From assembly GCF_009604375.1 (NCBI RefSeq), contig NZ_WEGH01000001.1, positions 930,001 to 994,000 on the forward strand: a DNA stretch of 64,000 nt, given 5' to 3'. The notes beneath the pieces were generated by a model, which had not been told where the DNA came from, did not search any database, and saw nothing but the letters and a program-made list of their open reading frames with translations. This DNA is from Actinomadura macrotermitis (GTDB lineage Bacteria > Actinomycetota > Actinomycetes > Streptosporangiales > Streptosporangiaceae). Made by a program: the position numbers and the translations under genes. Position 1 is the first letter of the stretch. Each line of letters begins with the position of its first letter. Shown in pieces: positions 47,225-61,636 of this stretch.

Positions 47225-47240
47225 CCAAGCGAGCGCTTGG
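47225..47240. promoter_or_regulatory. KstR2-like operator upstream of the monooxygenase gene
   Basis: The palindrome CCAAGCGAGCGCTTGG lies 36 bp before the start of the luciferase-like gene. It contains a one-mismatch version of the KstR2-type core (CGAG-CG-CTTG here), and the same motif recurs twice 5.4 kb away. It probably overlaps the promoter, so a TetR-type repressor would block transcription. Confidence 0.75.
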
Positions 47241-47276
47241 TCATAATCGGCACAGCAGAGCACCACCGGAGGCTCG

Positions 47277-48344
47277 ATGACGTCCCTACGGGTCAGCCTT
47301 GGCTATGAACTCGAGGTCCGCGGGCGGTCCCGCGACGTGGAACGGCGCGCGTTCGAGAACGTCATGGACCAGGTCGTGCTGGCCGACGAGCTCGGCTTCG
47401 ACACCGCCTGGTTCGTCGAGCACCACTTCACCCGGGGCTTCTCCCACTCCTCGGCGCCCGACCTGGTGCTGGCCGGCATCTCGCAGCGCACGTCGCGCAT
47501 CCACCTCGGCCTCGGCGTGGTGCTGCTGCCGTTCCAGTCGCCGATCCGCACCGCCGAGCGCGTCGCCACACTGGACGTGATCAGCGGCGGCCGGGTCGAG
47601 TTCGGCACCGGGCGCGGCGCGTCCCCGCTGGAGTACCAGGCGTTCCAGCGGCCCTTCGAGCAGTCGCGCAAGCTGTGGGAGGAGTCGCTGGAGGCCGTCC
47701 TGGCGATCTGGAACGCCGACGGGCAGCCGGTCAGCCGGTCCGGCGAGTTCTTCGAGATCCCCGACGTGTCGGTCTACCCGCGGCCGGTGCAGGAGCCGCA
47801 CCCGCCGGTGTGGGTCGCCTCCACCTCGCTGGACGGCTACCTCGCCGCCGCCAAGCAGGGCTACAACCTGCTCGGCATGACGATGCTGAAGGGCCTGGAC
47901 GAGGTCGCCGAGGACATCGCCCAGTACAAGCAGTGCCTGGCCGACAACGGGTTCGACCCCGACAGCAGGCGGATCGCGCTGATGATCCCCTGGCATGTCG
48001 CGCCGACCCAGCAGGAGGCCGTCGACACCGCCGCCGACGCGGTGCTGTGGTACCTGCGGCGGCAGATCAACCTGGTCGCGCCGCCCGACTACACCGACGC
48101 CCGGCACGCCACCCACCGCGTCCTCGGCCAGCAGGCCGTCGGGATGCCGCCGGAGGAGGCGATGGCGGTCCTGCGCGACCAGACCATGGTCGTCATCGAC
48201 GACGTGGAGGGCTCGCGCAAGGCCGTCGAGCGCATCGCCGCCGCGGGCGCCACCGACCTCATCCTGCAGGCGCAGGTGGGCGGCCTGGCCCACGAGCACG
48301 TCTGCGAGTCGATGAAGCTGTTCATGCGGGAGGTCGCGCAGTGA
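47277..48344 (+). CDS. LLM-class flavin-dependent monooxygenase
   Basis: The 355-residue protein is a luciferase-like TIM barrel: LADELGFDTAWFVEHHF, VVLLPFQSPIRTAERVATLD and FGTGRGASPLEYQAF (a flavin-binding region), then PPVWVAS. Such enzymes oxidise substrates using reduced FMN or F420. The flavin reductase at 52.9 kb could supply FMNH2, making a two-component system; if F420-dependent, that reductase is not needed. GGAGG precedes the ATG. The stop overlaps the next start (GTGA), and a CAAGC-type operator is upstream. Confidence 0.85.
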   Translation: MTSLRVSLGYELEVRGRSRDVERRAFENVMDQVVLADELGFDTAWFVEHHFTRGFSHSSAPDLVLAGISQRTSRIHLGLGVVLLPFQSPIRTAERVATLDVISGGRVEFGTGRGASPLEYQAFQRPFEQSRKLWEESLEAVLAIWNADGQPVSRSGEFFEIPDVSVYPRPVQEPHPPVWVASTSLDGYLAAAKQGYNLLGMTMLKGLDEVAEDIAQYKQCLADNGFDPDSRRIALMIPWHVAPTQQEAVDTAADAVLWYLRRQINLVAPPDYTDARHATHRVLGQQAVGMPPEEAMAVLRDQTMVVIDDVEGSRKAVERIAAAGATDLILQAQVGGLAHEHVCESMKLFMREVAQ

Positions 48345-49393
48345 GCTGGCCGACCCGCGCCGCCTACCCCGGCGGCCGTTCCGCCGCCGGGCTGCTGGCG
48401 GTCTCCCCCGAAGGCGAACTGGTCGCGCCGCTGGCCCCGGCGGCGCGCGAACTGACCGCCGAGACGCTGCGCGCCGCCGGGATCGGCGAGCGCGACCGCG
48501 TGGTGGTCGCGCTGAACGACGACGGCGAGCCCGCCGGGTCGCTGATCGCGCAGGCCGCCGCGGACGTCGCGCAGGCCGCCGCATCGGTCGGCCCGCGCGG
48601 CCGGATGCGGCTGCACACCGCGCTGGAGGCGGTCGGCGCCACCGCCCTCGTCACCACCCCGACCGGGGCGATGGACCTCCTCGCGCGGCTGCACCTGGAG
48701 TTCCTGCTCGACCCGCTGGACCTGGAGCTGCGGCACATCCTGCTCGTCGGCGAGATCGCCTCGTCGAACAGCGCCCGCCAGCTCGCCACCGAGTTCGAGG
48801 CGTCGGTGCGCGAGGTGTACGCCGACCCGTTCACCGGGGCGCTGCTCGCGCAGCGCGGCCCGTCCGACGCGGCGCTGACCCCGGCGCGCGAGGGCCTGCT
48901 CGGGCTCGCGCCCGTCGGCAAGGACGCGCTGCTGGAGGCGCCCTACGACGCGGGCCTGGCCGAACTGGTCGTCACCGCGCCCTGGCACGGCGAGCCGCTG
49001 CGCACCGGGCACGCGGTCCGGCTCGCGGGCGGCGAGACGGGCGTGCCCGCGCCCGCGCACACCGTCGGCGAGCACGTGCTGGTCCGGGGCCGCTGGGTGT
49101 CGGTGCCCAAGATCTCCGCCGCGCTGGCCCGGATCGACGGCGTGGCCCGCTGGGACCTGCGGATCAGGCGCGAGGGCACCCTGGACGCCGCCGCGCTGCA
49201 CGTGTCGTTCAACCGCGGCACCCTCGTCAAGAACCCCATGTGGAAGGCGCGGATCGCGCAGGCGCTGTACGCGCTCACCCCGGTGGCGATCGAGGTGGTC
49301 GTCGAGCCCGAGGTCGCCGAGGAGCGCCGTCCCGGCACGGTGACCGACCAGCGCGGCCACCACCTCGGCCGCGACCGCGCCCAGCTGTCCTGA
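48341..49393 (+). CDS. Degenerate PaaK-like (phenylacetate-CoA ligase family) protein
   Basis: The 350-residue product starts at GTG 48341. Its middle (HILLVGEIASSNSARQLATE, then VREVYADPF) and C-terminus (VLVRGRWVSVPKISAALARI) align by eye with the core and lid of PaaK-like adenylate-forming enzymes. It is about 80-90 residues short. The ATP-binding P-loop (TSGSTG type) is absent, and the PaaK GAEPW and DIYGLSE motifs are replaced by GEIAS and EVYADPF. Ligase activity by the usual mechanism is therefore unlikely. A binding or allosteric role with the adjacent FadD-like ligase is inference. Confidence 0.65.
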   Translation: MSWPTRAAYPGGRSAAGLLAVSPEGELVAPLAPAARELTAETLRAAGIGERDRVVVALNDDGEPAGSLIAQAAADVAQAAASVGPRGRMRLHTALEAVGATALVTTPTGAMDLLARLHLEFLLDPLDLELRHILLVGEIASSNSARQLATEFEASVREVYADPFTGALLAQRGPSDAALTPAREGLLGLAPVGKDALLEAPYDAGLAELVVTAPWHGEPLRTGHAVRLAGGETGVPAPAHTVGEHVLVRGRWVSVPKISAALARIDGVARWDLRIRREGTLDAAALHVSFNRGTLVKNPMWKARIAQALYALTPVAIEVVVEPEVAEERRPGTVTDQRGHHLGRDRAQLS

Positions 49394-49406
49394 CGGAGGC
49401 GACGCG

Positions 49407-50987
49407 ATGGAGGTGCAGCCGGTCCCCGCATGGGGGACGATCCCGCGGATGCTGCGGGACCAGGCGTCCGGGCACCCGGACGTGGAGGTGGTCGTCGCCG
49501 GGCCGGTCCGGCTGACGCTCGCCGAGCTGGCGGCCCGGGCCGGGGAGGTGGCGCGGGCGCTGATCGCGCTCGGCGTCTCCCCCGGCGACCGGGTCGCGGT
49601 GTGGGGGCCGAACGACCCGGACTGGGTCGTCGCGGCCTACGGGATCTGGGACGCCGGCGCCGTCATCGCGCCGCTGTCCACCCGGTTCAAGGGGCTGGAG
49701 GCCGCCGGGCTGCTCCGCAAGACCGGCGCGAAGGTGCTGCTGGCCGCCGAGGGCTTCATGGGCGCCTCCTACCTGGAGATGATCGAGGACGCGGAGCTGC
49801 CCGATTTGCAGCACCGCGTCGTCCTCGGCGGCGGACCCGCCCCGTCCGGCGCGCTGGGCTGGGCGGACTTCCTGGCGGGCGGGGCGGCGGTCTCCGCCGG
49901 GGCGGCCGAGGAGCGCGCGCTCGGCGTCGGACGGGACGACCTCGCCTCGATCATGGCGACGTCCGGCACCACCGGCGCGCCGAAGGGCGTCATGCTGCAC
50001 CACTCCCAGCTGCTGCGCGGCTACTGGGACTGGGCCGAGCTGGTCACGCTGCGCGAGGGCGACCGCTATCCGATCATCGCGCCGTTCTCGCACGGCTTCG
50101 GGATCAACGCGGGGCTGCTGGCGTGCGTGCTGCGCCGCGCCACGATGATGCCGGTCGCGCTGTTCCGGCCCGAGGAGCTGATGGACCTCATCGAGCGCGA
50201 CCGGATCAGCGTCCTGGCGGGCGCGCCGCCGATGTTCTTCAAGATCCTGGACGAGCTCGAAGGACGGGACGTCTCCTCGCTGCGGGTGGCGATCTGCGGC
50301 GCCGCCGCGGTGCCGCCCGAGCTGATCCGCCGGCTGGTGGACCGGGTCGGCCTGGACCGGATGATCAACGCGTACGGGCTGATGGAGGGCACCGTGGTGT
50401 CGATGACCCGGGCCGGCGACCCGGTCGAGGTGATCGCCTCCTCCACCGGCCGCGCGGTGCCGGGGGTGTCGGTGCGGGTCGTCGGCGAGGACGGCAAGGA
50501 CCTGCCGCCGGGCGAGCCGGGCGAGATCCTGGTCGGCGGGTACGGGGTGATGCGCGGCTACTGGCGCGACCCCGAGCGCACCGCCGAGGCCGTGGACCCC
50601 GGCGGCTGGCTGCACACCGGCGACATCGGCACGCTCGACGACGCCGGGAACCTGGCCATCGTGGACCGCAAGAAGGAGATGTTCATCGTCTCGGGGTTCA
50701 ACGCCTACCCGGCCGAGATCGAGGGGCTGCTGCTGCGCTGCCCGCTGGTCGGCCAGGTCGCGGTGATCGGCGTCCCCGACGCCGAGGTGGGCGAGGTCGG
50801 CCGGGCCTACGTGGTGCCGCCGCCGGGAACCGCCGTGGACGCCGAGGGGATCATCGCCTGGGCCCGCGCGAACATGTCCAACTACAAGGTGCCGCGCCGG
50901 GTGGTCGCGCTGGACGCGCTGCCGGTGAACGCCAACGGGAAGATCGACAAGCCGGCCCTGCACGCCCTGGCGGCGGAGGAGGGCTGA
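49407..50987 (+). CDS. FadD3-like acyl-CoA ligase
   Basis: The 526-residue adenylate-forming enzyme would activate a carboxylic acid as its CoA thioester. All motifs are intact: P-loop TSGTTGAPKG (185-194), AYGLMEG, GWLHTGDIG, KEMFIVSGFNAYPAEIEG and the C-terminal catalytic lysine in NANGKIDK (Lys512). It resembles the FadD3 group, whose mycobacterial member activates the steroid C/D-ring acid HIP and belongs to the KstR2 regulon. Operators of that kind occur in this cluster. GGAGG precedes the ATG. Its stop abuts the convergent DUF35 gene with no base between. Confidence 0.85.
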   Translation: MEVQPVPAWGTIPRMLRDQASGHPDVEVVVAGPVRLTLAELAARAGEVARALIALGVSPGDRVAVWGPNDPDWVVAAYGIWDAGAVIAPLSTRFKGLEAAGLLRKTGAKVLLAAEGFMGASYLEMIEDAELPDLQHRVVLGGGPAPSGALGWADFLAGGAAVSAGAAEERALGVGRDDLASIMATSGTTGAPKGVMLHHSQLLRGYWDWAELVTLREGDRYPIIAPFSHGFGINAGLLACVLRRATMMPVALFRPEELMDLIERDRISVLAGAPPMFFKILDELEGRDVSSLRVAICGAAAVPPELIRRLVDRVGLDRMINAYGLMEGTVVSMTRAGDPVEVIASSTGRAVPGVSVRVVGEDGKDLPPGEPGEILVGGYGVMRGYWRDPERTAEAVDPGGWLHTGDIGTLDDAGNLAIVDRKKEMFIVSGFNAYPAEIEGLLLRCPLVGQVAVIGVPDAEVGEVGRAYVVPPPGTAVDAEGIIAWARANMSNYKVPRRVVALDALPVNANGKIDKPALHALAAEEG

Positions 50988-51392
50988 TCAGCGGCGGGGG
51001 CGCCACTGCACGACGGTGGCGCCCTCGTCATCATCCGCGAAGACCGCCTCGACGGGCAGCCCTTCGCGCAGCTCGGCGGCGTCGCCGTCCACCAGGTTCC
51101 CGTACATCAGCAGGTCGTCGCCGTCGTCCAGGCGCACCAGCAGCACCGGGAAGGGCACCAGCTCCGCCATCGGCCGCGCGAACACCTGGTGGTTGACGAT
51201 CCAGCTGTAGACGCGCCCGGTCCCGCGGGCGGGCACCCAGGTGTACTCCAGCGAGCGGCAGCGGTTGCAGACCGCCCGCGCCGGGAAGCGCGGCGTCCCG
51301 CAGCCCTCGCACCTCTGCACGGTCAGCTCGTGCCGCCGCACCGCCTCCCACCAGGGCGCGGAGTCGCGGTCTTCTTCGGGCTTGATGCTCAT
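50988..51392 (-). CDS. DUF35 OB-fold/zinc-ribbon protein, partner of the thiolase-fold aldolase
   Basis: The 134-residue protein has an N-terminal helix (WEAVRRHELTVQRC), a zinc ribbon with CEGCG and CNRC (two CxxC pairs) and an OB fold (GRVYSWIVNHQ, MYGNLVDG). DUF35 proteins bind CoA esters and pair with thiolase-fold enzymes; ChsH2's DUF35 domain pairs with the aldolase Ltp2 in steroid side-chain cleavage. The Ltp2-like gene lies 62 bases upstream on the same strand, so the pair should form one complex. It lacks a MaoC hydratase domain, unlike ChsH2. Confidence 0.85.
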   Translation of the reverse strand: MSIKPEEDRDSAPWWEAVRRHELTVQRCEGCGTPRFPARAVCNRCRSLEYTWVPARGTGRVYSWIVNHQVFARPMAELVPFPVLLVRLDDGDDLLMYGNLVDGDAAELREGLPVEAVFADDDEGATVVQWRPRR

Positions 51393-51454
51393 CGGCGAAG
51401 CCTCCTTGGCACGGCCGGGGGGCGTGGGGGGTCGTCCCCCCTCGGAAGACACGA

Positions 51455-52630
51455 TCATCGGTCGCTCCGCAGGACGAGGGCCGAGGTGCCGGCGAGGACG
51501 TAGCCGGGCTGGGCGGTGGACAGCGCGACCTCGGCGCCGGGCACCTGCCGGTCCCCCGCCGTGCCGCGCAGCTGGGACACGGCCTCGGCGACGTGGTTGA
51601 TGCCGTGCACGTACCCCTCCGACAGGAAGCCGCCGTGGGTGTTGACCGGCAGCGCGCCGTCCAGGGCGGTGGCGCCGGACTCCACGAACGGGCCGCCCTC
51701 CCCCTTGGCGCAGAAGCCGTAGTCCTCCAGCTGCACCAGCACCGAGTAGGTGAAGCAGTCGTACAGCTCGGCGACGTCGATGTCCTCCGGCCCGACGCCC
51801 GCCATGGCGTACAGGCGCGGCGCGATCCGGGCCGCCTCGGTGACGGTGAAGTCGGTGCCGGACGGGCCGCTCCCCGCGCCGGAGAAGAAGCTGTCGCCGC
51901 CGCCCCAGGCAGCCCCCGACACCAGCACGGGCGTGTGCCTCAGGTCGCGCGCGCGCTCGCGGGAGGTGACGACGACCGCGCACGCCCCGTCGGTCTCCAG
52001 GCAGCAGTCCAGTAGCCGCAGCGGCTCGGCTATCCAGCGGGACGCCAGGTAGTCGTCCAGGGTGATGGGGTCGCGCTTGAGCGCGCGCGCGTTCTTGACG
52101 GCGTTGGCGCGCTGGGTCACCGCGATGCGCCCGAGCTGCTCGTGCGTCGTGCCGTAGGCGTTCATGTGCGCGCGCGCGAACATGGCGAACTGCTGCGGCG
52201 GCGCGAAGTAGCCGTAGGGCGCCTGGTACTGCATGTCGAAGACGGGCGCCGGCGCGCGGCCGGTGCCGCCCATCCGGAACTCCGAGCGGGCGTTGATGGC
52301 GCGGTAGCAGACGACGGTCTCGGCGACGCCGGACGCGACCGCCATGGCCGCCTGCGCGATCACCGAGTGCGAGACGCTGCCGCCGCCGAACTGGTCCAGG
52401 TACCAGCGCACCTCGGGGACGCCGAGCGCGGGCGCGACCACCCAGGGCGGGGTGGAGTCGCCGACCCGGTGGGTGGCCAGGGCGTCCACGTCGTCCACGG
52501 TGAGGCCGGCGTCGTCCAGCGCGGCCAGGATCGCGCGCGCCGCGAGGGTGAGCGTGGAGACCCCCGAGTCCTTGCTGAAGCCGGTGTAGCCGACGCCGGC
52601 GATGGCCGTCCGGTCGCGGAACCCGCGCAC
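51455..52630 (-). CDS. Ltp2-like thiolase-fold aldolase / lipid-transfer protein
   Basis: The 391-residue protein starts at GTG 52630 after GGGGAGGG. It has a thiolase fold, but the catalytic Cys position is FGGGSVS (81-87), so it cannot be a normal thiolase. It closely resembles Ltp2, the retro-aldolase that removes propionyl-CoA from steroid side chains: SRWIAEPLRLLDCC, GFCAKGEGGPFVESG and LPVNTHGGFLSEGYVHGIN are shared patterns. Tyrosines in AELYDCFT (Tyr290) and EGYVHG (Tyr340) match the two proposed catalytic tyrosines. It is divergent from the flavin reductase across two operators. Confidence 0.85.
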   Translation of the reverse strand: MRGFRDRTAIAGVGYTGFSKDSGVSTLTLAARAILAALDDAGLTVDDVDALATHRVGDSTPPWVVAPALGVPEVRWYLDQFGGGSVSHSVIAQAAMAVASGVAETVVCYRAINARSEFRMGGTGRAPAPVFDMQYQAPYGYFAPPQQFAMFARAHMNAYGTTHEQLGRIAVTQRANAVKNARALKRDPITLDDYLASRWIAEPLRLLDCCLETDGACAVVVTSRERARDLRHTPVLVSGAAWGGGDSFFSGAGSGPSGTDFTVTEAARIAPRLYAMAGVGPEDIDVAELYDCFTYSVLVQLEDYGFCAKGEGGPFVESGATALDGALPVNTHGGFLSEGYVHGINHVAEAVSQLRGTAGDRQVPGAEVALSTAQPGYVLAGTSALVLRSDR

Positions 52631-52660
52631 GCACCCTCCCCTGTCCACAGCGAACGCTAC

Positions 52661-52678
52661 CGAAGCAAGCGCTTGGCC
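52661..52678. promoter_or_regulatory. KstR2-like operator before the aldolase gene
   Basis: CGAAGCAAGCGCTTGGCC contains CAAG-CG-CTTG, the exact core of the KstR2 motif (AnCAAGnnCTTGnT; one mismatch overall). It lies about 30 bp upstream of the aldolase start and probably overlaps its promoter. Confidence 0.75.
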
Positions 52679-52843
52679 AAGAGCTTATCCGCCTCCGGAC
52701 CGACCCGCTACCGGGACTTTGGACTGAAATAGGGCGATCCGCGCCACATCCGGCAATAACCGGGCGACCGGCGGGTTTAGATGACAGGCAGGGGCGCACG
52801 ACCCGAACGCGGCTTGACACCCGGTTCGGGGCCGCCCTATCGT

Positions 52844-52859
52844 CCAAGCAAGCGCTTGG
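52844..52859. promoter_or_regulatory. KstR2-like operator before the flavin reductase gene
   Basis: CCAAGCAAGCGCTTGG contains CAAG-CG-CTTG and lies 21 bp before the reductase ATG at 52881. It is near-identical to the sites at 47225 and 52661. A GGCTTGACA -35-like sequence lies just to its left, so it sits in the core promoter. Confidence 0.78.
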
Positions 52860-52880
52860 CTAAGAGAAGGGATCGGGTCC

Positions 52881-53507
52881 ATGGCCGACGGTGCCACCGC
52901 AGCAGCAGCCGCCATCGCGGGCGACCCGGCGGACCGACCCTCGGGCGGGCACGTGAGAACAGGACGCCGCATGTACCGATCGCCGAACGGCCCGGCCGCG
53001 GCCCCCGAGGCCGACGCCCGGGTGACCGACATCGACGGCGCCCGCTTCCGCTCGGTGCTCGGCCGCTTCGCGACCGGCGTGGTCGCGATCACCGGCATCG
53101 ACGCCGCCACCGGCCGCCCGACCGGGCTGGCCGCCAACTCCTTCACCTCGGTCTCGCTGGAGCCGCCGCTGGTGGCGTTCTGCGTGGCGCACACCAGCAG
53201 CACCTGGCCGCTGCTGCGCGACGCCGGCCGCCTGTGCATCAACATCCTCAGCGAGCCCCAGCTGGCCGTCTGCAAGCAGCTGGCCATCAAGGGCGGCGAC
53301 AAGTTCGCCGACATCTCCTGGTCGGGCTCGCCGGGCGGCAGCCCCGTCATCGAGGGCGCGCTCGCCTGGATCGAGGTCTCGGTCGAGCAGGAGCACGTCG
53401 CGGGCGACCACGTCATCGTGGTGGCGCGGGTGCACGACCTGGACAAGCACCACGAGGGCGAGCCGCTGCTGTTCTACAAGGGCGGCTACGGCCGCTTCGA
53501 CGGCTAG
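52881..53507 (+). CDS. HsaB-like flavin reductase
   Basis: The flavin reductase domain (FRSVLGRFATGVVAITG, then NSFTSVSLEPPLVAFC and NILSEPQ) supplies reduced FMN to a partner monooxygenase. It resembles HsaB, the reductase of steroid A-ring hydroxylation. The 208-residue form starts at ATG 52881 (GAAGGGA before it); an ATG at 52971, with AGGA before it, would give 178 residues and starts closer to the conserved domain. The stop codon overlaps the convergent ROK stop. The luciferase-like enzyme at 47.3 kb is the likely partner. Confidence 0.82.
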   Translation: MADGATAAAAAIAGDPADRPSGGHVRTGRRMYRSPNGPAAAPEADARVTDIDGARFRSVLGRFATGVVAITGIDAATGRPTGLAANSFTSVSLEPPLVAFCVAHTSSTWPLLRDAGRLCINILSEPQLAVCKQLAIKGGDKFADISWSGSPGGSPVIEGALAWIEVSVEQEHVAGDHVIVVARVHDLDKHHEGEPLLFYKGGYGRFDG

Positions 53508-54736
53508 CGCAGCGCGGTCTCGGCCGGGCCGCGCAGCCGCGCGAGCACCTGCACCGGGTCGGCCAGCACCTCGGCGAAGGCGTACTCGGCGGCGCCGACG
53601 AGGGTGACGTCGTCGCCGAGCTCGGCGGTGCGCAGCCGGACCCGCTCGCGGGGCGCGGCGAGCGCGCCGGTGGCGAGGACGCTGCGCACCTGCGCGGCCG
53701 ACCCGAGGTAGATGTCGCGCAGCGTACCGCCGAACACCACCATGCCGGGGTTGAAGATGTTGACCAGGTTGGCCACCCCGAAACCGAGCCAGGTGCCGAC
53801 CCGGTGCAGCGCGTCGCGGGCGACGATGTCGCCGCGGTCGGCGGCGTCGACGACGGCGCGCACCGCGTCGCGGCCGACCGGGCGGCCCGGCCCGTCGCGC
53901 TCGGCGTGCGCCAGCAGCGTCCGCTCCCCCACCTCGGTCTCCAGGCAGCCGCGCGACCCGCAGGCGCACGGGCGGCCGCCGGGGTTGACGACCATGTGGC
54001 CGATCTCGCCGCCGTAGCCCTCCTGGCCGCCGAGCAGCCGGCCGCCGACGATGATGCCGCCGCCGACGCCGACGTCGCCGTGCAGGTAGATCAGGTCGTC
54101 GCAGCCGACGCCCGCGCCGCGCTCGTGCTCGGCCAGCGCGCCGAGGTTGGCGTCGTTGCGGACCGCGACCGGGACGCCGAGGCCGAGCCGGCGGGCCAGC
54201 GCGTCGCCGAGCGAGAGCCCGTCCACGTCCAGGTTCGGCCCGAACATGATCATGTCGTCGGCGCGCCGGACGATGCCGGGGAAGGCCAGGGCCGCGCCGA
54301 CGCACACCGCGTCGCGGCCGGCCTTGCGCACCAGCGCGCGGGCCGCGCCGGCCAGGGCGCCGACCAGGTCGCCGGTGTCGAGCTCGCCGCGCGGCCGCTC
54401 GGTCTCGCGGCGGTCCAGGACCGTGCCGCCGAGGCCGACGCGGGCGACCGCGAGCCGGTCCACCGCGACGTCGAAGGCGAGCACGTACACCCGGGTCGAC
54501 TCGGGCTGCACCACCAGCGAGGGCCGCCCGGCGCGGCGGCCGGGGCGGCGCGGCAGCTCCTCGCGGACCAGGCCGGCCGCGGTGAGGTCGCTGGTCAGCG
54601 CCATGATGGTGCTGCGGTTCAGGCCGAGGGTCTCGGCGAGCGTGGCGCGCGAGGCCGGGCCGCGCAGGTGCACGAACCGCAGCAGCGTGCCGAGGTTGTG
54701 CCGGCGGATCTCCTCCTGCGACGGCCCGGCCTTCAT
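53504..54736 (-). CDS. ROK family transcriptional regulator (XylR/NagC type)
   Basis: The 410-residue protein has an N-terminal winged helix (residues 5-65, ASRATLAETLGLNRSTIMA) and a C-terminal ROK sugar-binding domain. The zinc site is CACGSRGCLETEV, and VRNDANLGALAEH holds the sugar-binding Asp. Such proteins repress sugar operons and release on binding the sugar. The ATG overlaps the stop of the adjacent ATPase gene (ATGA), placing the regulator last in the transport operon. Palindromes upstream of the operon (58.9 kb) are candidate targets. Confidence 0.9.
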   Translation of the reverse strand: MKAGPSQEEIRRHNLGTLLRFVHLRGPASRATLAETLGLNRSTIMALTSDLTAAGLVREELPRRPGRRAGRPSLVVQPESTRVYVLAFDVAVDRLAVARVGLGGTVLDRRETERPRGELDTGDLVGALAGAARALVRKAGRDAVCVGAALAFPGIVRRADDMIMFGPNLDVDGLSLGDALARRLGLGVPVAVRNDANLGALAEHERGAGVGCDDLIYLHGDVGVGGGIIVGGRLLGGQEGYGGEIGHMVVNPGGRPCACGSRGCLETEVGERTLLAHAERDGPGRPVGRDAVRAVVDAADRGDIVARDALHRVGTWLGFGVANLVNIFNPGMVVFGGTLRDIYLGSAAQVRSVLATGALAAPRERVRLRTAELGDDVTLVGAAEYAFAEVLADPVQVLARLRGPAETALR

Positions 54737-55485
54737 GCGCGCAGCCCGAGGTCGCCGCTGCGGCCGGAGGTGATCAGCTCGACGACCTGGCGGTGGGTGA
54801 CGTCGGCGGTGCGCACCTGGGCCGCCATCCGGCCGAGGTACAGGGCCGCGATCTGGTCCGAGACCGCGAACACGTCGTTCATGTTGTGCGAGATCAGCAC
54901 GACGGCCAGGCCCTTGTCGGCCAGCCGCCGCACCAGCTCCAGCACCTGCTGGGTCTGCGCGACGCCGAGCGCGGCGGCGGGCTCGTCCAGCACCACCACC
55001 CGGCTGTCCCACAGCACCGCGCGGGCGATCGCGACGGTCTGCCGCTGCCCGCCCGACAGGTCGCTGACCCGGCGCCGCACCGAGCCCATCGTGCGCACCG
55101 ACAGCGCGGCGAGCGTGCGGGCGGCCTGCTCCTCCATCGCGGCCTCGTCGAGCGCCAGGCCGTTGCTGCGCTCGCGGCCGAGGAACATGTTCTCGACGAT
55201 GTCGAGGTTCTCGCAGAGCGCCAGGTCCTGGTGGACGACCTCGATGCCGAGCCCGGCGGCGTCGCGGGGGCTGCCGAGGCGCACCGGGGTGCCCTCGAAG
55301 CGGTACTCGCCGGCGTCGGGCTGGTGCACGCCGCCGATGCACTTCACCAGCGTGGTCTTGCCGGCGCCGTTGTCGCCGACCAGCGCGGTCACCTCGCCGG
55401 GGCGGGCGGTGAAGTCGACGTCGTGCAGGACCTGGACCGGGCCGAAGCTCTTGTCGATGCCACGCAGGTCCAACAGGGGGGTCAC
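54733..55485 (-). CDS. Sugar ABC transporter ATP-binding protein 2
   Basis: The 250-residue single-domain ATPase starts at GTG 55485 with no clear ribosome site; TAACGT just upstream hints at a leaderless start. Motifs are Walker A GDNGAGKTT, signature LSGGQRQTVAIA and Walker B VVVLDEPAAALGV. XylG/RbsA-type ATPases usually fuse two such domains in about 500 residues; here they are separate genes. Its DEPAAALGV differs from DEPTAALGV in the first ATPase. It is probably the second half of a heterodimer. Confidence 0.85.
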   Translation of the reverse strand: MTPLLDLRGIDKSFGPVQVLHDVDFTARPGEVTALVGDNGAGKTTLVKCIGGVHQPDAGEYRFEGTPVRLGSPRDAAGLGIEVVHQDLALCENLDIVENMFLGRERSNGLALDEAAMEEQAARTLAALSVRTMGSVRRRVSDLSGGQRQTVAIARAVLWDSRVVVLDEPAAALGVAQTQQVLELVRRLADKGLAVVLISHNMNDVFAVSDQIAALYLGRMAAQVRTADVTHRQVVELITSGRSGDLGLRA

Positions 55486-55571
55486 GGGGCTGACGTTAGC
55501 AGCCCGCGGCGGGTGCGCAGGCGCCGGAACCGGGGGGCCGCAGACGCGGCCCCCCGGCCCGGCGGGGCGGT

Positions 55572-56867
55572 TCACCTGCCCGTCGCCGACCGCCGGCGGC
55601 TGGCGATGGCGTCGATGCTGGCGGCGAGCAGCAGCACGCCGCCGGTGATCAGGTAGTTGGCGTAGGCCTTGGTGCCGAGCAGGCCGAGGCCGTTGTCGAT
55701 GACGGCGATGACCAGGCCGCCCAGCACCGCGTCGCGGGCCCGGCCGCGCCCGCCGAACAGGCTGGTGCCGCCGATGACCGCGGCGCCGACGCCGAGCAGC
55801 AGCGTGTTGCCGCCGCCCGACTCGGTGGCGACCGAGTTCAGCCGGGACGCCGCCACCACGCCGCTGATCGCGGCGAGCGACGAGCCGATCATGAAGACCG
55901 ACACCCGGATCCGGGTGACGTTGATGCCGGCCCGGCGGGCCGCCTCGGCGTTGCCGCCGACGGCGTACACGTGCCGGCCGTAGGCGGTGCGGCCGAGCAG
56001 GAAGGTGGCGGCGATGAGCAGCACCGCGACCAGCGGCACGCCCCACGGCACGCCCGCCAGGGTGATCAGCGGGCTCGGCGCCCGGTCCAGGCTGAGCAGG
56101 TAGGTGCCGACCAGCAGCACCAGCGCGACGACGGCGACGCGGGCGGCCACGATCTGGACCGGCTTGGCGGCCAGGCCGCGGGTGCGCTGGCGGCGCCAGC
56201 GCAGGAACTGGGACGCGCCGTACCCGGCGGCGCAGACCACCGCGGCCGTCCAGCCGAGCCAGATCGGCATGTTCTTGTTGGCCAGCGCGACGATCACGTT
56301 GTCGTGCACCGGGACGGTGCCGCCCTCGCCGATCAGCTTCAGCGTCACGCCCTGCAGGCCGAGGAACAGCGCGAGGGTCACCACGAAGGAGGGGATCCGC
56401 AGCACCGCGACCAGCCAGCCGATGCTGGTGCCGATGACCAGGCCGGTGCCGATCGCCACCAGCACCGCCACGTACCAGGGCTGGCCCGCGTCCACGATCA
56501 GCTTGGCCATCACCGCGCCGCACACGCCGCTGGTGACGCCGGCCGACAGGTCGATCTCGCCGAGCAGCAGCACGAACACCAGGCCCATGGCCAGGATCGT
56601 GTAGGGCAGCGCCTGGGTGAACAGGTTGGCGACGTTGCCGGTGCTGAGGAAGGTGTCCGGGCGCAGCGCCGCGAACAGCGCGATCAGCCCGGCCAGGCCG
56701 AGGATCGCCGGGATCGCGCCGAGGTCGCCGGCGCGGACGCGGGCCCAGTAGTCGGCGACCGAGGAGCGCACGTCGTGCTCGCGCCGGTCGCTGGCGAAGT
56801 CGGAGTCCGCCAGTTTCACGGCGGGCTGCTTTCCCTTGGGGATGTCGGTGGACATCGAGGCCCCCAT
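55572..56867 (-). CDS. Sugar ABC transporter permease (XylH-like)
   Basis: The 431-residue protein has a hydrophilic N-terminus of about 50 residues and about ten membrane helices. The BPD_transp_2 motif is visible (LLLGEIDLSAGVTSGVCGAV near residue 115, and GGTSLFGGRGRARDAVLGGL), which marks ribose/xylose-type permeases. The ATG at 56867 shares one base with the stop of ATPase 1 (TGATG). With the binding lipoprotein and two ATPases it makes an importer. Xylose or another pentose is likely but unproven. Confidence 0.88.
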   Translation of the reverse strand: MGASMSTDIPKGKQPAVKLADSDFASDRREHDVRSSVADYWARVRAGDLGAIPAILGLAGLIALFAALRPDTFLSTGNVANLFTQALPYTILAMGLVFVLLLGEIDLSAGVTSGVCGAVMAKLIVDAGQPWYVAVLVAIGTGLVIGTSIGWLVAVLRIPSFVVTLALFLGLQGVTLKLIGEGGTVPVHDNVIVALANKNMPIWLGWTAAVVCAAGYGASQFLRWRRQRTRGLAAKPVQIVAARVAVVALVLLVGTYLLSLDRAPSPLITLAGVPWGVPLVAVLLIAATFLLGRTAYGRHVYAVGGNAEAARRAGINVTRIRVSVFMIGSSLAAISGVVAASRLNSVATESGGGNTLLLGVGAAVIGGTSLFGGRGRARDAVLGGLVIAVIDNGLGLLGTKAYANYLITGGVLLLAASIDAIASRRRSATGR

Positions 56868-57667
56868 CAGATGTTCTCGGCGGCGGTCGCCGGTGCCAGG
56901 CCGAGGTCGCCCGAGCGCCCGGCGGTGATGAGCTCCACGACCTGGCCGTGGGTGACGTCGGTGCGCCGCACCTGCGCGGCGACCCGGCCGAGGTACAGCG
57001 CGGTGATCTCGTCGGCGACCTCGAACACGTCGTTCATGTTGTGCGAGATGAGCACCACCGCGTGCCCGGTGTCGGCCAGACGGCGGACCAGGTCCAGGAC
57101 CTGGCGGGTCTGCGCGACGCCGAGCGCGGCGGTCGGCTCGTCCAGGATGACGACCTTGGACTCCCACAGGGCCGCCTTGGCGATCGCGACGGTCTGCCGC
57201 TGCCCGCCCGACAGGCTGGCCACCTGCTGGCGCACCGACTTCACGGTGCGCACCGACAGCCGCGCGAGGGTCTCCCGCGCGGCCTCCTCCATGGAGTCCT
57301 CGTCCAGCACCAGGCCGCGGCGGCGCTCGCGGCCGAGGAACATGTTCTGCACGATGTCGAGATTGTCGGCCAGCGCGAGGTCCTGGTAAACCACCTCGAT
57401 GCCGAGGGCCGCGGCGTCCCGGGGACTGCCGATCTGCACCTGGCGGCCGTCGAACTCGATCGTGCCCGAGTCGATCGGGTGGATGCCGGCGATGCACTTG
57501 ATGAGGGTGGACTTGCCCGCGCCGTTGTCGCCGACGAGGGCGGTCACCTCCCCCAGGCGCAGGGTGAGGTCCACGTCGTGCAGGACGTGGACGGGGCCGA
57601 AGCTCTTGTTGAGCCCGGTCAGGCGCAGCACGGGTTCGCCGGTGCCTGCGGTGCCTGGATCTGCCAC
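56867..57667 (-). CDS. Sugar ABC transporter ATP-binding protein 1
   Basis: The 266-residue protein is a single ABC domain with Walker A GDNGAGKST (46-54), signature LSGGQRQTVAIAK, Walker B VVILDEPTAALGV and H-loop VVLISHNMND. It is 60-65% like ATPase 2 by eye, with the same architecture. The two lie either side of the permease gene. Gene order (lipoprotein, ATPase 1, permease, ATPase 2, ROK) suggests a duplication. The 84-bp gap to the lipoprotein contains a strong hairpin. Confidence 0.88.
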   Translation of the reverse strand: MADPGTAGTGEPVLRLTGLNKSFGPVHVLHDVDLTLRLGEVTALVGDNGAGKSTLIKCIAGIHPIDSGTIEFDGRQVQIGSPRDAAALGIEVVYQDLALADNLDIVQNMFLGRERRRGLVLDEDSMEEAARETLARLSVRTVKSVRQQVASLSGGQRQTVAIAKAALWESKVVILDEPTAALGVAQTRQVLDLVRRLADTGHAVVLISHNMNDVFEVADEITALYLGRVAAQVRRTDVTHGQVVELITAGRSGDLGLAPATAAENI

Positions 57668-57697
57668 GGTGGTTTCCTTCCGGAGGGCCGCGCGGCC

Positions 57698-57732
57698 CGT
57701 GGCGGGTCCCCCAGCGGTGGGGACCCGCCACG
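57698..57732 (-). terminator. Hairpin between binding-protein and ATPase genes
   Basis: CGTGGCGGGTCCCC and GGGGACCCGCCACG form a perfect 14-bp stem with a seven-base loop in the gap after the lipoprotein stop. Its position suits attenuation or RNA stabilisation, giving more binding protein than membrane components. Confidence 0.75.
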
Positions 57733-57751
57733 AGGGGTCAGCGGTGGGACG

Positions 57752-58843
57752 TCACTTGATGCCGGCGGCGGAGCACTTGGCCGCGTAGGCGCCCTTGCAC
57801 AGGTCGTCCTTCTTCACGAACCCGTCGTCCACGACCTGCTTGACGCCGTCCTTGAAGACCGGGATCGGGCTGAGCAGCACCGAGGGGACGTCGCGGTTGC
57901 CGGTGGCGTCCTTGGTGGTGCCGTTGGTCGCGCCCTTCTCGCCCTTCAGCAGGCCGACGGCGAGCTTGGCGGCGGCGTCGGCCTCCTGCTTGACCGGCTT
58001 GTAGACCGTCATGCACTGGGTGCCGTCGAGGATGTTCTGCAGGCCCTGCAGGCTGGCGTCCTGACCGGTGACCGGGACCTTGCCGGCGAGGGAGTTCTTC
58101 TTCAGGATCGACACCGCCGAGTTGCCGACGCCGTCGTTGGCGGCGAGCACGCCGTCGATCTTGCCGCCCTGCTGGGTCAGCATCTGCTCGAAGATGGTGG
58201 CGGCCTTCTGGTTGTCCCAGTCGGGCACGGCCTGCTCGGCGACCTTCTTGTAGGTGGAGACCTTGTCCAGCACGCTGTGCGCGCCCTGGGCGAACAGGGT
58301 CGCGTTGTTGTCGGTCGGCGCGCCGTTCAGGTAGACGATGTTGGCGGCCTTGTCGCCCAGGCACTTCTGCAGGCCCTTGCCGAGCTCCTCGCCGACCTTG
58401 GTGTTGTCGAAGGAGACGTAGTAGTCCGACACGCCGCCGAGGGTGAGGCGGTCGTAGTCGATGGTCTTGACGCCCTGCGCCTGCGCCTTGCGCTGCACGG
58501 CGGCGGCGGAGTTGGAGTCCAGGCCGTCCACGATCAGCACGGTGACGCCGCCGGTGATCATCTGGTCGGCGATGGTCTGGAAGCGCTGGGTCGAGCCCTC
58601 GGCGTTCTGGATGTCGTACTGCACACCCGCCGCCTTGAAGGACTGCTCCAGGTAGGGGCGGTCGAAGCTCTCGTAGCGGACCGAGGACTTGGTGTCGGGC
58701 AGGATCACGCCGACCTTGCCCTTGATCGCGCCGCCCGAGGCCGAGCCGCCCTTGTCCTTGCCGGAGTCGTCGCCGCCACAGGCGGTGAGCGACAGGGCGG
58801 CGGCGGCCGCCACGGCGGTGAGACCGAGGATCCCCTTGCGCAT
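57752..58843 (-). CDS. Sugar ABC transporter substrate-binding lipoprotein (XylF-like)
   Basis: The 363-residue product has a lipoprotein signal (Cys22 in LTACGG) and a two-lobed Peripla_BP_4 fold: VGVILPDTKSSVRYES, VLIVDGLDSNSAAAVQRKAQ, ILAANDGVGNSAV-like (VLAANDGVGN) and PVTGQDASLQGLQNILDGTQ, motifs of xylose- and ribose-type binding proteins. It is the first gene of the operon. AAAGGA precedes the ATG. The ligand is a sugar, probably a pentose, by family resemblance. Confidence 0.9.
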   Translation of the reverse strand: MRKGILGLTAVAAAAALSLTACGGDDSGKDKGGSASGGAIKGKVGVILPDTKSSVRYESFDRPYLEQSFKAAGVQYDIQNAEGSTQRFQTIADQMITGGVTVLIVDGLDSNSAAAVQRKAQAQGVKTIDYDRLTLGGVSDYYVSFDNTKVGEELGKGLQKCLGDKAANIVYLNGAPTDNNATLFAQGAHSVLDKVSTYKKVAEQAVPDWDNQKAATIFEQMLTQQGGKIDGVLAANDGVGNSAVSILKKNSLAGKVPVTGQDASLQGLQNILDGTQCMTVYKPVKQEADAAAKLAVGLLKGEKGATNGTTKDATGNRDVPSVLLSPIPVFKDGVKQVVDDGFVKKDDLCKGAYAAKCSAAGIK

Positions 58844-58919
58844 GGCCGGGTCCTTTCTGGGATGACGATCGCCGTGACCGGGGTCACACGTTCAACGGCG
58901 TGAATGTTGTGCCCCGCAA

Positions 58920-58947
58920 CTTATGTCGCCTCCACCTCGGTCGCCAA
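58920..58947 (-). promoter_or_regulatory. Candidate promoter of the sugar operon
   Basis: On the minus strand, TTGGCG (-35, 58942-58947) and CATAAG (-10, 58920-58925) are 16 bases apart, about 76 bp upstream of the binding-protein ATG. The GTGAATGTTG element lies just downstream, where a bound repressor would block elongation. Confidence 0.4.
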
Positions 58948-58968
58948 CCCCTCTGCCCCACCTATTTG

Positions 58969-58984
58969 TTGTTAGCCGTAACAA
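58969..58984. promoter_or_regulatory. Candidate ROK-type operator
   Basis: TTGTTAGCCGTAACAA is a perfect palindrome (TTGTTA-N4-TAACAA) upstream of the candidate -35. ROK regulators often use A/T-ended palindromes of this size. It is a good candidate site for the ROK protein encoded last in this operon. Confidence 0.5.
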
Positions 58985-59174
58985 TCCAGTAACACGCTCT
59001 TCACCTGCGGGAAGATCAAAAGTCATGGACCGGGCGGGCGACGGCCGCGCGGACGTGCCCGAACGCACGGCGGGCTCATATGTTCACGGCCTCAACATTC
59101 ACCGGCGCGCGGGGCGGGAGATCGCCCGGCGCGGGGCGCGGCGGCGGGCGCGGGCGGGGCCGGGCCCGCCGTGA

Positions 59175-59215
59175 TCATGCAGTCGGGGGCCGGGATGTCC
59201 GGTCCGGCTGCATGA
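59175..59215 (-). terminator. Hairpin after the 98-residue protein gene
   Basis: TCATGCAG and CTGCATGA, extended inward by CGG/CCG with one mismatch, form a long stem ten bases past the stop of the small gene. No U-tract follows. It probably terminates that gene. Confidence 0.6.
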
Positions 59216-59224
59216 CCACGCCGC

Positions 59225-59521
59225 TCAGTGGACGGCGAGCACCCGCACGACCAGGTCGGCCGCGCCGGCGACGTCCGCCGCGGGCGCGACGCGCTCGGCC
59301 CACGACCACCAGTACCACCACCCGTCCGCGCCCTCCTCCGCGAGGATGTTCTCCGCGAGGGCGGACGCGTCCGGGTTCGTCACGTGCAGGCTGGGCGCCT
59401 GGCCGCGGGGCTGGGTGACGCGCACCCGCATGCCCCGCCGCGCCAGCTCGGCGCCGAGCTCCTCCAGATATTCGATCCGCGACTTCACCAGCGCGGCCGT
59501 TCCCGTATCGTCAGGCGTCAT
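59225..59521 (-). CDS. Small hypothetical protein with aromatic cluster
   Basis: The 98-residue product starts at ATG 59521 with GGAG eight bases upstream. It has a helix (SRIEYLEELGAELARRGM), a strand-rich part (RVRVTQPRGQAPSLHVTN), and an unusual aromatic run WWYWWSWAERV. This looks like a compact alpha/beta domain. It has no signal peptide, and codon use and a terminator-like hairpin support a real gene. I do not recognise the family. Confidence 0.7.
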   Translation of the reverse strand: MTPDDTGTAALVKSRIEYLEELGAELARRGMRVRVTQPRGQAPSLHVTNPDASALAENILAEEGADGWWYWWSWAERVAPAADVAGAADLVVRVLAVH

Positions 59522-59710
59522 CCTTGTCGCTCCAGTGGATTCCGCGTGGCCCGACGAGGACACACCTTCCTCTGTCGCATCCCCGCGCGCAAGCACTTCG
59601 GGCAGGTCAGCGCGGCGCGGGCCGGGCGCCCGGCCGGACCGGGACGCCCGTCCGTGATCTCTGGGACGGCATCCGGGATATCTTGCACCCCAGACGTAGG
59701 AGCGGGACGG

Positions 59711-60376
59711 ATGGGGACGTTGATGATCATGAACTCGGGAGCGACCCCGGAGTGGACCCGGCCCGACATGCCGCTGCCCGCCCGGCCCGCGCAGCCCGCC
59801 GCGCCCCCGCCCGCGACGCTGGCCATGCCCGCGCCGCTGCCCGAGCGCGAGCCCGAGCCCGCGCCCGCGCCGGTCTCGGGGAACTGGCACCGCTTCCACT
59901 ACCCCGTCGCGGTCTTCCTGGTCGCCTTCGCGGTGACCGCGCTCGCCGTCACCGCCGCCCGCTGGTCCGGCCACCGGGCCGACATGGCCGGGTACGCCGG
60001 CGCGGGCCTGGCGCTGCCGGCGCTCGGCGCCGTCAAGGCCGTGCAGCTGCTGCTCCTGCTCACCGGCCTGTGCGCGCTGCTGAGCCGCCGCGACGTGTGG
60101 CTGCTGCCGACGCTGTTCGGCTGGCTGGCGGGCTTCGGCGTGTTCGCCGTGCTCGACGTCGTCAAGGGCAGGATGCTGCCGCTGGCCGAGCACGGCGTCT
60201 ACGCGGCGGTGTTCGCGGCGCTGCTCGCGGTGTCCTACACGCTCAGCGTCAAGGCGCGGGTCGGCGGCCCGGCGGGCGGCCAGGGCGGGCAGGGCCCGCG
60301 CCCGTCCGGCCTCAGCCGCACGCAGGAGTTCGCGCTGTCGGCGGCGAACCGCTGGCAGCGCGCGCCCCAGGGCTGA
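59711..60376 (+). CDS. Small multi-pass membrane protein of unknown function
   Basis: The 221-residue product starts at ATG 59711 with AGGAG before it. An N-terminal cytoplasmic tail of about 60 residues is rich in proline and glutamate (EREPEPAPAP). Four to five hydrophobic helices follow (residues 65-180, such as AVFLVAFAVTALAVTAARW), and the C-terminal tail is positively charged. No family was recognised. It stands alone, with no clear link to its neighbours. Confidence 0.65.
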   Translation: MGTLMIMNSGATPEWTRPDMPLPARPAQPAAPPPATLAMPAPLPEREPEPAPAPVSGNWHRFHYPVAVFLVAFAVTALAVTAARWSGHRADMAGYAGAGLALPALGAVKAVQLLLLLTGLCALLSRRDVWLLPTLFGWLAGFGVFAVLDVVKGRMLPLAEHGVYAAVFAALLAVSYTLSVKARVGGPAGGQGGQGPRPSGLSRTQEFALSAANRWQRAPQG

Positions 60377-60401
60377 GCGGCGGGCCGGGCGGGGACGCGG
60401 G

Positions 60402-61469
60402 TCAGGGCAGCACGACTATCTTGGCGTCGGCGTCGGGGCGGGACAGGTCGGCGAACGCGCCCGCGACGCCGTCCAGCCCGACCGTCCGGGTGATGATCGA
60501 CCCGGCGTCGATGCGGCCCTCGGCGATGTCGTGCAGCGTCGCCCCGTATTCGGCCGGGTAGGCGCCGAAGCTGCCGCGCAGGGTGAGCTCCTTGCTGACC
60601 GCGACGCCCGGCTCGATCCGGTCGGCCTGCATGCACACGCCGACGACCATGACGGTCGCGCCCGCCGGCGCGCCCTCGATGACCTGGCCGAGGATGCCGG
60701 GCACGCCGACGCACTCGAAGATGACCGCGCCGCGCACCCCGACGCCGAGCACCTCGGCGGCGATCCGCTCGACGGTGCTGGCCGCGATGCCGAGGTCGGC
60801 CCACCGGTCGTAGGGGGAGGCGACGGCCGGGTCGATCAGCTCGTCCGCGCCGAGCCCCTCGGCGAGCGCGCGCCGCGCGGGCGAGAAGTCCACCGCCAGC
60901 ACCGGCCCGTGCCCGCGCGCCTTCAGCGCCGCCACGACGCCGAGCCCGATCGGGCCGAGGCCGAGCACGACGGCGACGTCGCCGGGGTCGATCCCGCTGC
61001 GGTTCACCGCCCGGGTGGCCACCGAGAACGGCTCGGTGATCGCGGCGATCTTGGGGTCCAGCCCGTTCGGCACCGCCATCACCAGGCCCTCGTTCAAGAT
61101 CATGTATTCGCCGTAGCCGCCGGGGAACATCGGCGCGTAGCCGATGATGCCGGCGCCCTGCGGGCCGATCCCGATCGGCGGGCCGCACACCGCGGTGCCG
61201 ATCGGCAGGGTGCGCTGGGTGTTCGGGCCGTAGTCGACGATCTCGCCGCAGAACTCGTGGCCGAACACCAGCCCGTCGCGCGGGTCGTAGGGGGTGCCGC
61301 CCGAGCGCCGGGTGGTCTCCATGAAGGCGTCGGGGTCCGACAGCGCGTGCAGGTCCGAGCCGCAGATGCCGCAGGCCAGCGTGCGCACCAGGATCTGGCC
61401 GTCCAGCGGCACCGGGTCGGGCACCTCGGTCACGATCATCGTGGCGTCCTTGGTCAACGCGGCGCGCAT
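60402..61469 (-). CDS. Zinc-binding alcohol dehydrogenase (MDR family)
   Basis: The 355-residue protein begins at ATG 61469 (GGAGA before it). It has the catalytic zinc site (CGICGSDLH, GHEFCGEIVDYG), an NAD(P)-binding Rossmann fold (VLGLGPIGLGVVAAL) and a C-terminal catalytic end. The four-Cys structural zinc lobe of horse-liver-type enzymes is missing: the region reads AVCGPPIGIGPQGAG. It resembles actinobacterial threonine/sorbitol-type dehydrogenases, but the substrate is unknown. It is convergent to the membrane protein and divergent from the M14 peptidase. Confidence 0.85.
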   Translation of the reverse strand: MRAALTKDATMIVTEVPDPVPLDGQILVRTLACGICGSDLHALSDPDAFMETTRRSGGTPYDPRDGLVFGHEFCGEIVDYGPNTQRTLPIGTAVCGPPIGIGPQGAGIIGYAPMFPGGYGEYMILNEGLVMAVPNGLDPKIAAITEPFSVATRAVNRSGIDPGDVAVVLGLGPIGLGVVAALKARGHGPVLAVDFSPARRALAEGLGADELIDPAVASPYDRWADLGIAASTVERIAAEVLGVGVRGAVIFECVGVPGILGQVIEGAPAGATVMVVGVCMQADRIEPGVAVSKELTLRGSFGAYPAEYGATLHDIAEGRIDAGSIITRTVGLDGVAGAFADLSRPDADAKIVVLP

Positions 61470-61636
61470 GGGGGTCTCCAACCGTCAGGTGATGCTGCTC
61501 ACCCGAACCGAACCACGTCGCGCGGCCGAATACCACCGTCCGATGGCGTCAACGCGCCGAAAAGATCAATTTCTACGGGCTTATTGTTAAATGTTGCCGT
61601 TGGTGAGTGTTTTCGCCGGTGCGAGTTTTGTGGATC

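Follow-up and report, generated by a model that had tools for sequence, protein, structure and literature searches.

Six genes in a 64,000-nucleotide stretch of the Actinomadura macrotermitis genome (contig NZ_WEGH01000001.1, positions 930,001 to 994,000 of the forward strand; hereafter the window) are preceded by three near-identical palindromes (Boxes 1 to 3), which, on the evidence of sequence comparison, are conserved copies of a KstR2-type palindrome. The boxes are very probably read by a KstR2-family TetR protein, referred to here as TetR-A, and the genes that they precede, among them a predicted luciferase-like flavin monooxygenase (LLM), may allow the steroid C/D-ring (HIP) pathway to be entered by an alternative way that does not involve HsaA; the chances for and against this are considered to be about equal. 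Positions in the window are counted from its first letter; those prefixed C1 or C8 refer to contigs of the same genome.

Direct reading of the window located the boxes, which precede three small operons, at the sites where an original prediction made from the sequence had placed them, Box 1 having one mismatch; the three align on GCTTGG in the forms given in Table 1. The spacings to the downstream starts that had been predicted (36, about 30 and 21 bp) were also recovered, the second of these shrinking to 12 bp if the Ltp2-like frame is taken from its first possible start (52648). Start 52630 fits the orthologs better, in that most matches begin at residue 5–12 of the longer frame. The bare core, CAAGCGCTTG, shows no enrichment in the 8.53-Mb genome: it has 7 exact copies, its reversed control has 10, and a third-order Markov model (284 kb of training sequence) predicts 3.0. 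The 14-mer AAGCRAGCGCTTGG is likewise not enriched in the genome when up to two mismatches are permitted (81 matches versus 96 control matches). The exact 14-mer is enriched, with six genomic copies versus 0.047 expected from a third-order Markov model. Three of these are the boxes in the window, a fourth lies 5' of a second LLM gene (1020275), a fifth between an LLM and a CaiB-like gene (2499548/2499671), and the sixth 310 bp before the gene for riboflavin synthase. The window itself holds 37 matches to the core with at most one mismatch, which is above the number in shuffled sequences, although most are not box-like. A chance palindrome was rejected as an explanation, with the case being carried only by the longer form and by conservation, given that the bare 10-mer is unenriched.

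Conservation was examined by scanning genome contigs with the Ltp2-like protein, which yielded at least 78 loci. Of these, 47 (918 kb) were used, comprising loci from Actinomadura, Nonomuraea, Streptosporangium, Nocardiopsis and relatives together with two from metagenome-assembled genomes (MAGs) of a deltaproteobacterium and an unclassified bacterium; no box pattern was seen in the remaining 31 loci, which are from remoter relatives. In the 47 loci, 81 of 84 exact cores are situated within 700 bp of the start of an LLM, Ltp2-like or flavin reductase gene. The original prediction would have been undermined by a motif that is frequent and unrelated to these promoters; instead, the exact 14-mer is confined to the six copies described above and the cores are concentrated near the starts of cluster genes. 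A core lies 5' of the Ltp2-like gene in 45 of 47 loci (the exceptions are the two MAG loci), 5' of the flavin reductase gene in 45 of 45, and 5' of the LLM gene in 19 of the 22 loci with enough upstream sequence, the three without being from Nocardiopsis; a further eight are cut by the end of the locus. The 15-mer CAAGCRAGCGCTTGG occurs 37 times in ten relatives and its reversed control not at all. Thirty of these copies were placed: 7 at the gene for LLM-A (the monooxygenase of the window), 11 at the Ltp2-like or flavin reductase genes, 7 at LLM-B (a further LLM gene, considered below), 2 at other LLM genes, 1 at a CaiB-like gene, and 2 with nothing recognised nearby. Alignment of 75 distinct sites in both orientations (150 windows) gave the consensus AnCAAGCGCTTGnT, with A at −2 and T at +11 around the core in 65% of windows. 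This corresponds to the published 14-bp KstR2 box, AnCAAGnnCTTGnT, for which gel shifts are presented in PMC3068626, and so agrees with the designation of the palindromes as KstR2-like operators in the original prediction. The left half of Boxes 2 and 3 agrees letter for letter with the longer KstR2 operator, given as AAGCAAGNNCTTGCTT in PMC8228715, and Box 1 has one change.

The regulator had been predicted to lie outside the window, and a gene for a KstR2-family TetR protein, TetR-A, starts 7.0 kb beyond its end. The best PDB matches to TetR-A are 2ibd (E 2.5e-58) and KstR2 itself (4w1u, E 9e-57; 4w97), at 195–200 bits, with identities of 46.6% and 47.6% to the KstR2-type structures 4w1u and 2ibd, respectively. 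The recognition stretch, ATTVRDIA..AGILSGSLYHHF, is the same as in KstR2, and the ligand-site pattern RDT.W...RW is present in 28 of 29 TetR-A sequences, with one unmatched; the R-W-R residues are those that we take to be the HIP-CoA ligand site of KstR2. Since both features are kept, TetR-A may be released by HIP-CoA or a similar compound. In a sample of 150 family genomes, the window's own included (the best candidates, at most 11–19 per genome, being scored), TetR-A orthologs were found in 93 at a threshold of 250 bits and in 106 at E 1e-40. All 34 genomes with a full match (at least 600 bits) to the Ltp2-like protein of the window are among the 93 (hypergeometric 5e-9), and in 28 of the 34 the two genes share a contig, 4.1–40.5 kb apart, with separate contigs in the other six. 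Thirty TetR-A loci were taken, of which one was unreadable; an exact core is present within 200 bp upstream of the gene in 18 of the remaining 29, and a site within four mismatches of the 16-mer in 26, with none in three. Together these data make TetR-A, in all likelihood, the regulator of the boxes. A search of the genome for other candidates, in which 150 TetR domains were scored (the best 150 of 376 candidates), leaves some room for a different TetR protein with a similar palindrome, and a second KstR2-family member, TetR-B, is encoded at C1:94543. That another protein reads the boxes is nonetheless very unlikely, given that TetR-B has a different box and a different recognition stretch, on which grounds it was rejected as their reader, and that TetR-A is linked, co-inherited and, at the loci counted above, preceded by a box of its own. 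A GntR-like gene found near the cluster in 23 loci was also discarded: its neighbour is a CutC-like gene (named by eye), and nothing connects it with the box.

TetR-B is flanked by genes read as fadE30-ipdF and fadA6, an order that PMC5380842 also gives for M. tuberculosis. The promoters beside TetR-B, including that of fadE30, carry another box, CTACCAAACGATTGTTAG and variants. In a phylogeny, the KstR2 chains cluster with six TetR-B proteins (support 100) and 29 TetR-A proteins fall outside, albeit with an unreliable root (outgroup branch 7.8), and the last arginine of the ligand site is replaced by N, G or S in all six TetR-B proteins. Thus, as far as can be judged from these alignments, the protein nearer to KstR2 by descent (TetR-B) differs from that nearer by DNA reading (TetR-A); box and descent have been parted between two KstR2-type proteins, because TetR-B groups with KstR2 but has another box, another recognition stretch and no final arginine.

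The products of the six genes were compared with known families and structures (Table 1). LLM-A falls under the cut-off of every one of 25 NCBIfam models (of 30 matched), and its nearest solved relative scores 107.8 bits. Regulation of LLM genes in general by the box was rejected, since the genome contains 33 such genes (E 1e-10 or better) of which few are boxed. The product of the second gene, the degenerate PaaK of the original prediction, could be assigned to no family of Pfam or NCBIfam at E 0.001; its predicted fold matches PaaK1 (2y27, E 6.7e-15), with a TM score of up to 0.76 to 4r1l, and ATP-loop patterns, even when loosened, are found in none of 33 PaaK-fold sequences. The ligase, FadD3L, matches the FadD3 family (NF005801) as had been predicted, although its 599.1 bits are below the family cut-off of 657. 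A C4 zinc finger (C-x2-C-x10-C-x2-C) is retained in 42 of 42 orthologs of the DUF35 protein. The Ltp2-like protein, Ltp2L, had been described as an Ltp2-like aldolase, and similarity to TcLtp2 is evident (303.8 bits to 6ok1), but it is a distinct paralog: it scores 409.3 bits against PRK07855, below the cut-off of 469, has the motif YDCF in 47 of 47 sequences in place of the YDHF of Ltp2, and coexists with a true Ltp2 encoded at C1:1487282. An equivalent of Tyr344 is present in all 47. In PMC12329534, tyrosine is given as the base in TcLtp2 and CtSal and cysteine as the acid in CtSal, with Tyr294 of YDHF as base and Tyr344 as acid; because of these roles, Ltp2L is likelier to be a retro-aldolase than a thiolase. 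Ltp2L therefore shares with the Ltp2-ChsH2 and Sal-Shy (DUF35) aldolases a thiolase-like sequence with a DUF35 partner, the catalytic tyrosine and the C4 zinc finger, and with TcLtp2 the second tyrosine. It differs in its YDCF motif, which is closer to the YDCY of Sal and the YDCF of SLP, and in that the six genes include no MaoC hydratase. The flavin reductase, FlvR, is nearest to HsaB (NF045630, 178.5 bits, below the cut-off of 230) and, like HsaB, is retained together with an oxygenase in a context linked to HIP; the oxygenase here is of the LLM type and not of the HsaA type, the fold of HsaA being acyl-CoA-dehydrogenase-like. The order LLM – PaaK-like – FadD3L / DUF35 – Ltp2L / FlvR is kept in most of the 47 loci, as far as each locus reaches, with extra genes inserted between DUF35 and FadD3L in some.

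Table 1. Boxes, cluster genes and related loci of the A. macrotermitis genome
Feature	Position	Strand	Remarks
Box 1	47225..47240	.	CCAAGCGAGCGCTTGG; one mismatch in inner CAAGCGCTTG; 36 bp to LLM-A ATG (47277)
LLM-A, predicted luciferase-like flavin monooxygenase	47277..48344	+	PF00296, 191.5 bits
PaaK-fold protein without ATP-binding loop	48341..49393	+	predicted fold, pLDDT 81
FadD3L, FadD3-like acyl-CoA ligase, predicted HIP-CoA-type synthetase	49407..50987	+	
DUF35 partner, ChsH2-type zinc ribbon and OB fold	50988..51392	-	PF12172, PF01796
Ltp2L, Ltp2-like protein, predicted retro-aldolase	51455..52630 (frame may begin 52648)	-	PF22691
Box 2	52661..52676	.	CGAAGCAAGCGCTTGG; 30 bp to Ltp2-like start 52630
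Box 3	52844..52859	.	CCAAGCAAGCGCTTGG; 21 bp to flavin reductase ATG (52881)
FlvR, HsaB-like flavin reductase, predicted LLM-A partner	52881..53507	+	PF01613
TetR-A, KstR2-family TetR	C1:1001003-1001668		
TetR-B, second KstR2-family TetR	C1:94543-95166		between genes read as fadE30-ipdF and fadA6
True Ltp2 of the genome, in Igr-like operon	C1:1487282-1494428		602.5 bits to TcLtp2; PRK07855 683.2 bits

A connection between the module and the C/D-ring genes is seen in two Nonomuraea genomes, G100 and G122. In G122 the TetR-A box precedes genes read as fadA6/tetR-A (0 mismatches), echA20-ipdABC (2 mismatches), FlvR-fadE30-ipdF and Ltp2L-DUF35 (0–1 mismatches), and also LLM-PaaK-FadD3L; the same gene sets carry it in G100, and no TetR-B was found at E 1e-40 among the 19 candidates scored in each of these genomes. 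Because the same box precedes HIP-type genes there, the cluster appears to be part of a HIP-type regulon in G100 and G122, which ties it to steroid C/D-ring catabolism. The resemblance to the KstR2 regulon of Mycobacterium and Rhodococcus extends to the box AnCAAGnnCTTGnT near gene starts, often divergent, to a KstR2-family TetR, to the FadD3-like ligase and, in the two Nonomuraea genomes, to the presence under one box of genes read as FadE30, IpdF, FadA6, EchA20 and IpdABC. The LLM, flavin reductase, PaaK-fold and Ltp2-like/DUF35 genes set the present cluster apart, with none appearing in the published KstR2 gene table in so far as that table was available, as does the occurrence in the window's genome of two KstR2-type TetR proteins with different boxes. 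An operon resembling echA20-ipdABC is located at C1:81554-84976 in that genome, and its IpdA matches 6co6 with E 2.8e-94.

The distribution of the module bears on its role. Among the 150 genomes, LLM-A orthologs (cut-off E 1e-100) are present in 36, IpdA in 71 and HsaA over its model cut-off of 450 bits in 44. IpdA is found in all 36 LLM genomes versus 71 of 150 overall (4e-15), and HsaA exceeds its cut-off in only one of the 36. The 71 IpdA genomes divide into 35 with LLM only, 34 with HsaA only, one with both (G028) and one with neither (G010) (Fisher 6e-18, kinship being ignored); G028 and G001 are LLM genomes without a 600-bit match to Ltp2L. By genus, 14 are all LLM, 16 all HsaA, three have both kinds in separate species, one has both in one genome and one has neither. 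In a set of ten genomes, HsaA scores do not exceed 312.7 bits in the eight that have the cluster, three of which have nothing at E 1e-20, versus more than 600 bits in the two without; the best HsaA score in the window's genome is 285.6 bits, under the 450-bit cut-off. Because LLM alternates with HsaA among the IpdA genomes, the module appears to provide the HIP pathway with a different front end. Replacement by LLM of the ring openers EchA20 and IpdAB was rejected, given the invariable presence of IpdA in LLM genomes and the echA20-ipdABC-like operon in the window's genome.

The same figures could be accommodated if the module were an accessory part of HIP catabolism, acting on HIP variants or late intermediates, with the alternation reflecting merely which lineages keep rings A/B catabolism. 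The constant company of IpdA, the boxed HIP-type genes of G100 and G122, and the uniformity of 30 of the 35 IpdA-bearing genera would all follow, although the 34 HsaA-only IpdA genomes without an LLM-A ortholog indicate that the HIP pathway does not need LLM, and both kinds of genome occur within three genera; this explanation is considered somewhat unlikely. It is unlikely, too, that the substrate is a terpenoid or other alicyclic acid as opposed to a steroid, in which case both the KstR2-type regulator and the Ipd genes for ring opening would have been borrowed by the module. Such a substrate would be in keeping with HsaA scores under the cut-off in 35 of 36 LLM genomes and with the additional boxes that precede LLM, CaiB, dioxygenase and ligase genes (names partly by eye), which are not known to have a steroid role, but the genome also holds the true Ltp2 operon, with 602.5 bits to TcLtp2. 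That operon, which is Igr-like, additionally encodes a MaoC/ChsH2-type DUF35 fusion (424 aa), two acyl-CoA dehydrogenase-like proteins (one named by eye), a steroid-22-oyl-CoA synthetase-like ligase and a KstR-like TetR, the last two under family cut-offs. Two things underlie the front-end role, for which the balance of probability is close to even: the distribution, and the fact that the window's genome has true genes for side-chain and C/D-ring catabolism while lacking HsaA.

On this reading, TetR-A would bind the three boxes and block expression of the module until HIP-CoA, or a CoA ester of ring D resembling it, releases the protein. LLM-A and FlvR would then act as a two-component flavin monooxygenase oxidising a steroid- or perhydroindane-type substrate, the CoA ester of which would be made by FadD3L, and Ltp2L with DUF35 would make a retro-aldol cut; the PaaK-fold protein would be a non-adenylating partner. 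The product would enter the FadE30/IpdF/IpdC/EchA20/IpdAB/FadA6 route.

Several observations weigh against an HsaA-free entrance under TetR-A control. The need for an aldolase pair and for several LLM/ligase sets is left unexplained by a front-end role. In the window's genome, the HIP-type genes adjoin TetR-B, and fadE30 carries the different box; FadD3L alone of fadD3, fadE30, ipdF, fadA6, echA20 and ipdABC is under a TetR-A-type box, with fadE30-ipdF-tetR-B-fadA6 having that of TetR-B. TetR-A may therefore not control the HIP-type genes here, since they adjoin TetR-B and have another box, and TetR-B groups with KstR2. Eleven of the 29 TetR-A loci are without an exact core, so that the original prediction's suggestion of a TetR gene with the site in its own promoter is borne out at the other 18 loci, with only a copy bearing three mismatches in the window's genome. 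The presence of TetR-A in 93 genomes versus LLM in 36 indicates that TetR-A has other work. In addition, IpdA alone was matched to a solved structure, with FadE30, IpdF, FadA6, EchA20, IpdB and IpdC named by order, domains and reading; scoring was limited to the best candidates of each genome; rings A/B were represented by HsaA alone; 9 of 44 HsaA genomes are without IpdA; and the alternation is confounded by kinship, most genera being of one kind throughout.

A number of related genes were noted elsewhere. In genomes without the LLM module (loci L287, L288, L289, L290, L291 and L300), TetR-A is located near Dabb-like, flavodoxin-like and SDR genes, all named by eye. In a second boxed group at C1:1013802-1029499, LLM-B is found with a gene for an acyl-CoA ligase, and there are also a further Ltp2-like gene and a DUF35-like gene with VOC- and ligase-like genes; boxes precede the Ltp2-like gene and LLM-B, and weaker ones precede 1025762/1026445 and 1027178. 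Boxes are also situated between LLM and CaiB-like genes at C1:2497821-2500702, and at C8:400703-402471, where an LLM gene lies on one side and a phytanoyl-CoA-dioxygenase-like gene (by eye) on the other; it is possible that these two loci are further members of the regulon or belong to that of a sister regulator. On the 3' side of the cluster, a ROK regulator, sugar ABC transporter genes and a dehydrogenase-like gene (window 53504-61481) follow in Actinomadura loci, and fadE30- and ipdF-like genes stand in their place after FlvR in other genera. Relatives of Ltp2L with 69–71% identity occur in MAG contigs assigned to Deltaproteobacteria, an unclassified bacterium, Acidimicrobiia and Myxococcota, with no box beside the gene (loci L113, L117, L126 and L127), and the Ltp2-like gene has likely spread between phyla.

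The main text of PMC4810484, in the portion available, contains no mention of Actinomadura, Streptosporangi-, Nonomuraea or Nocardiopsis. No publication on the cluster, or on KstR2 in these genera, was found in the open-licence literature searched. To our knowledge, aerobic steroid degraders that reach HIP have been described as passing via HsaA-type hydroxylation of ring A. It is tentatively proposed that the Streptosporangiales have a second, undescribed route into C/D-ring catabolism, in which the HsaA-dependent opening of rings A/B would give way to an LLM and its HsaB-like reductase, together with a PaaK-fold helper and an aldolase pair of the Sal type, all under a rewired KstR2-family repressor. 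The hybrid-active-site aldolase and the LLM oxygenase could serve in the making of steroid building blocks, and the presence of two KstR2-type proteins and two boxes in one pathway would offer a test case of repressor and box re-use. If true, the proposal would mean that a central step in the mineralisation of steroids is solved in a second way, with this gene set standing in the place of HsaA in 35 of 71 IpdA genomes.

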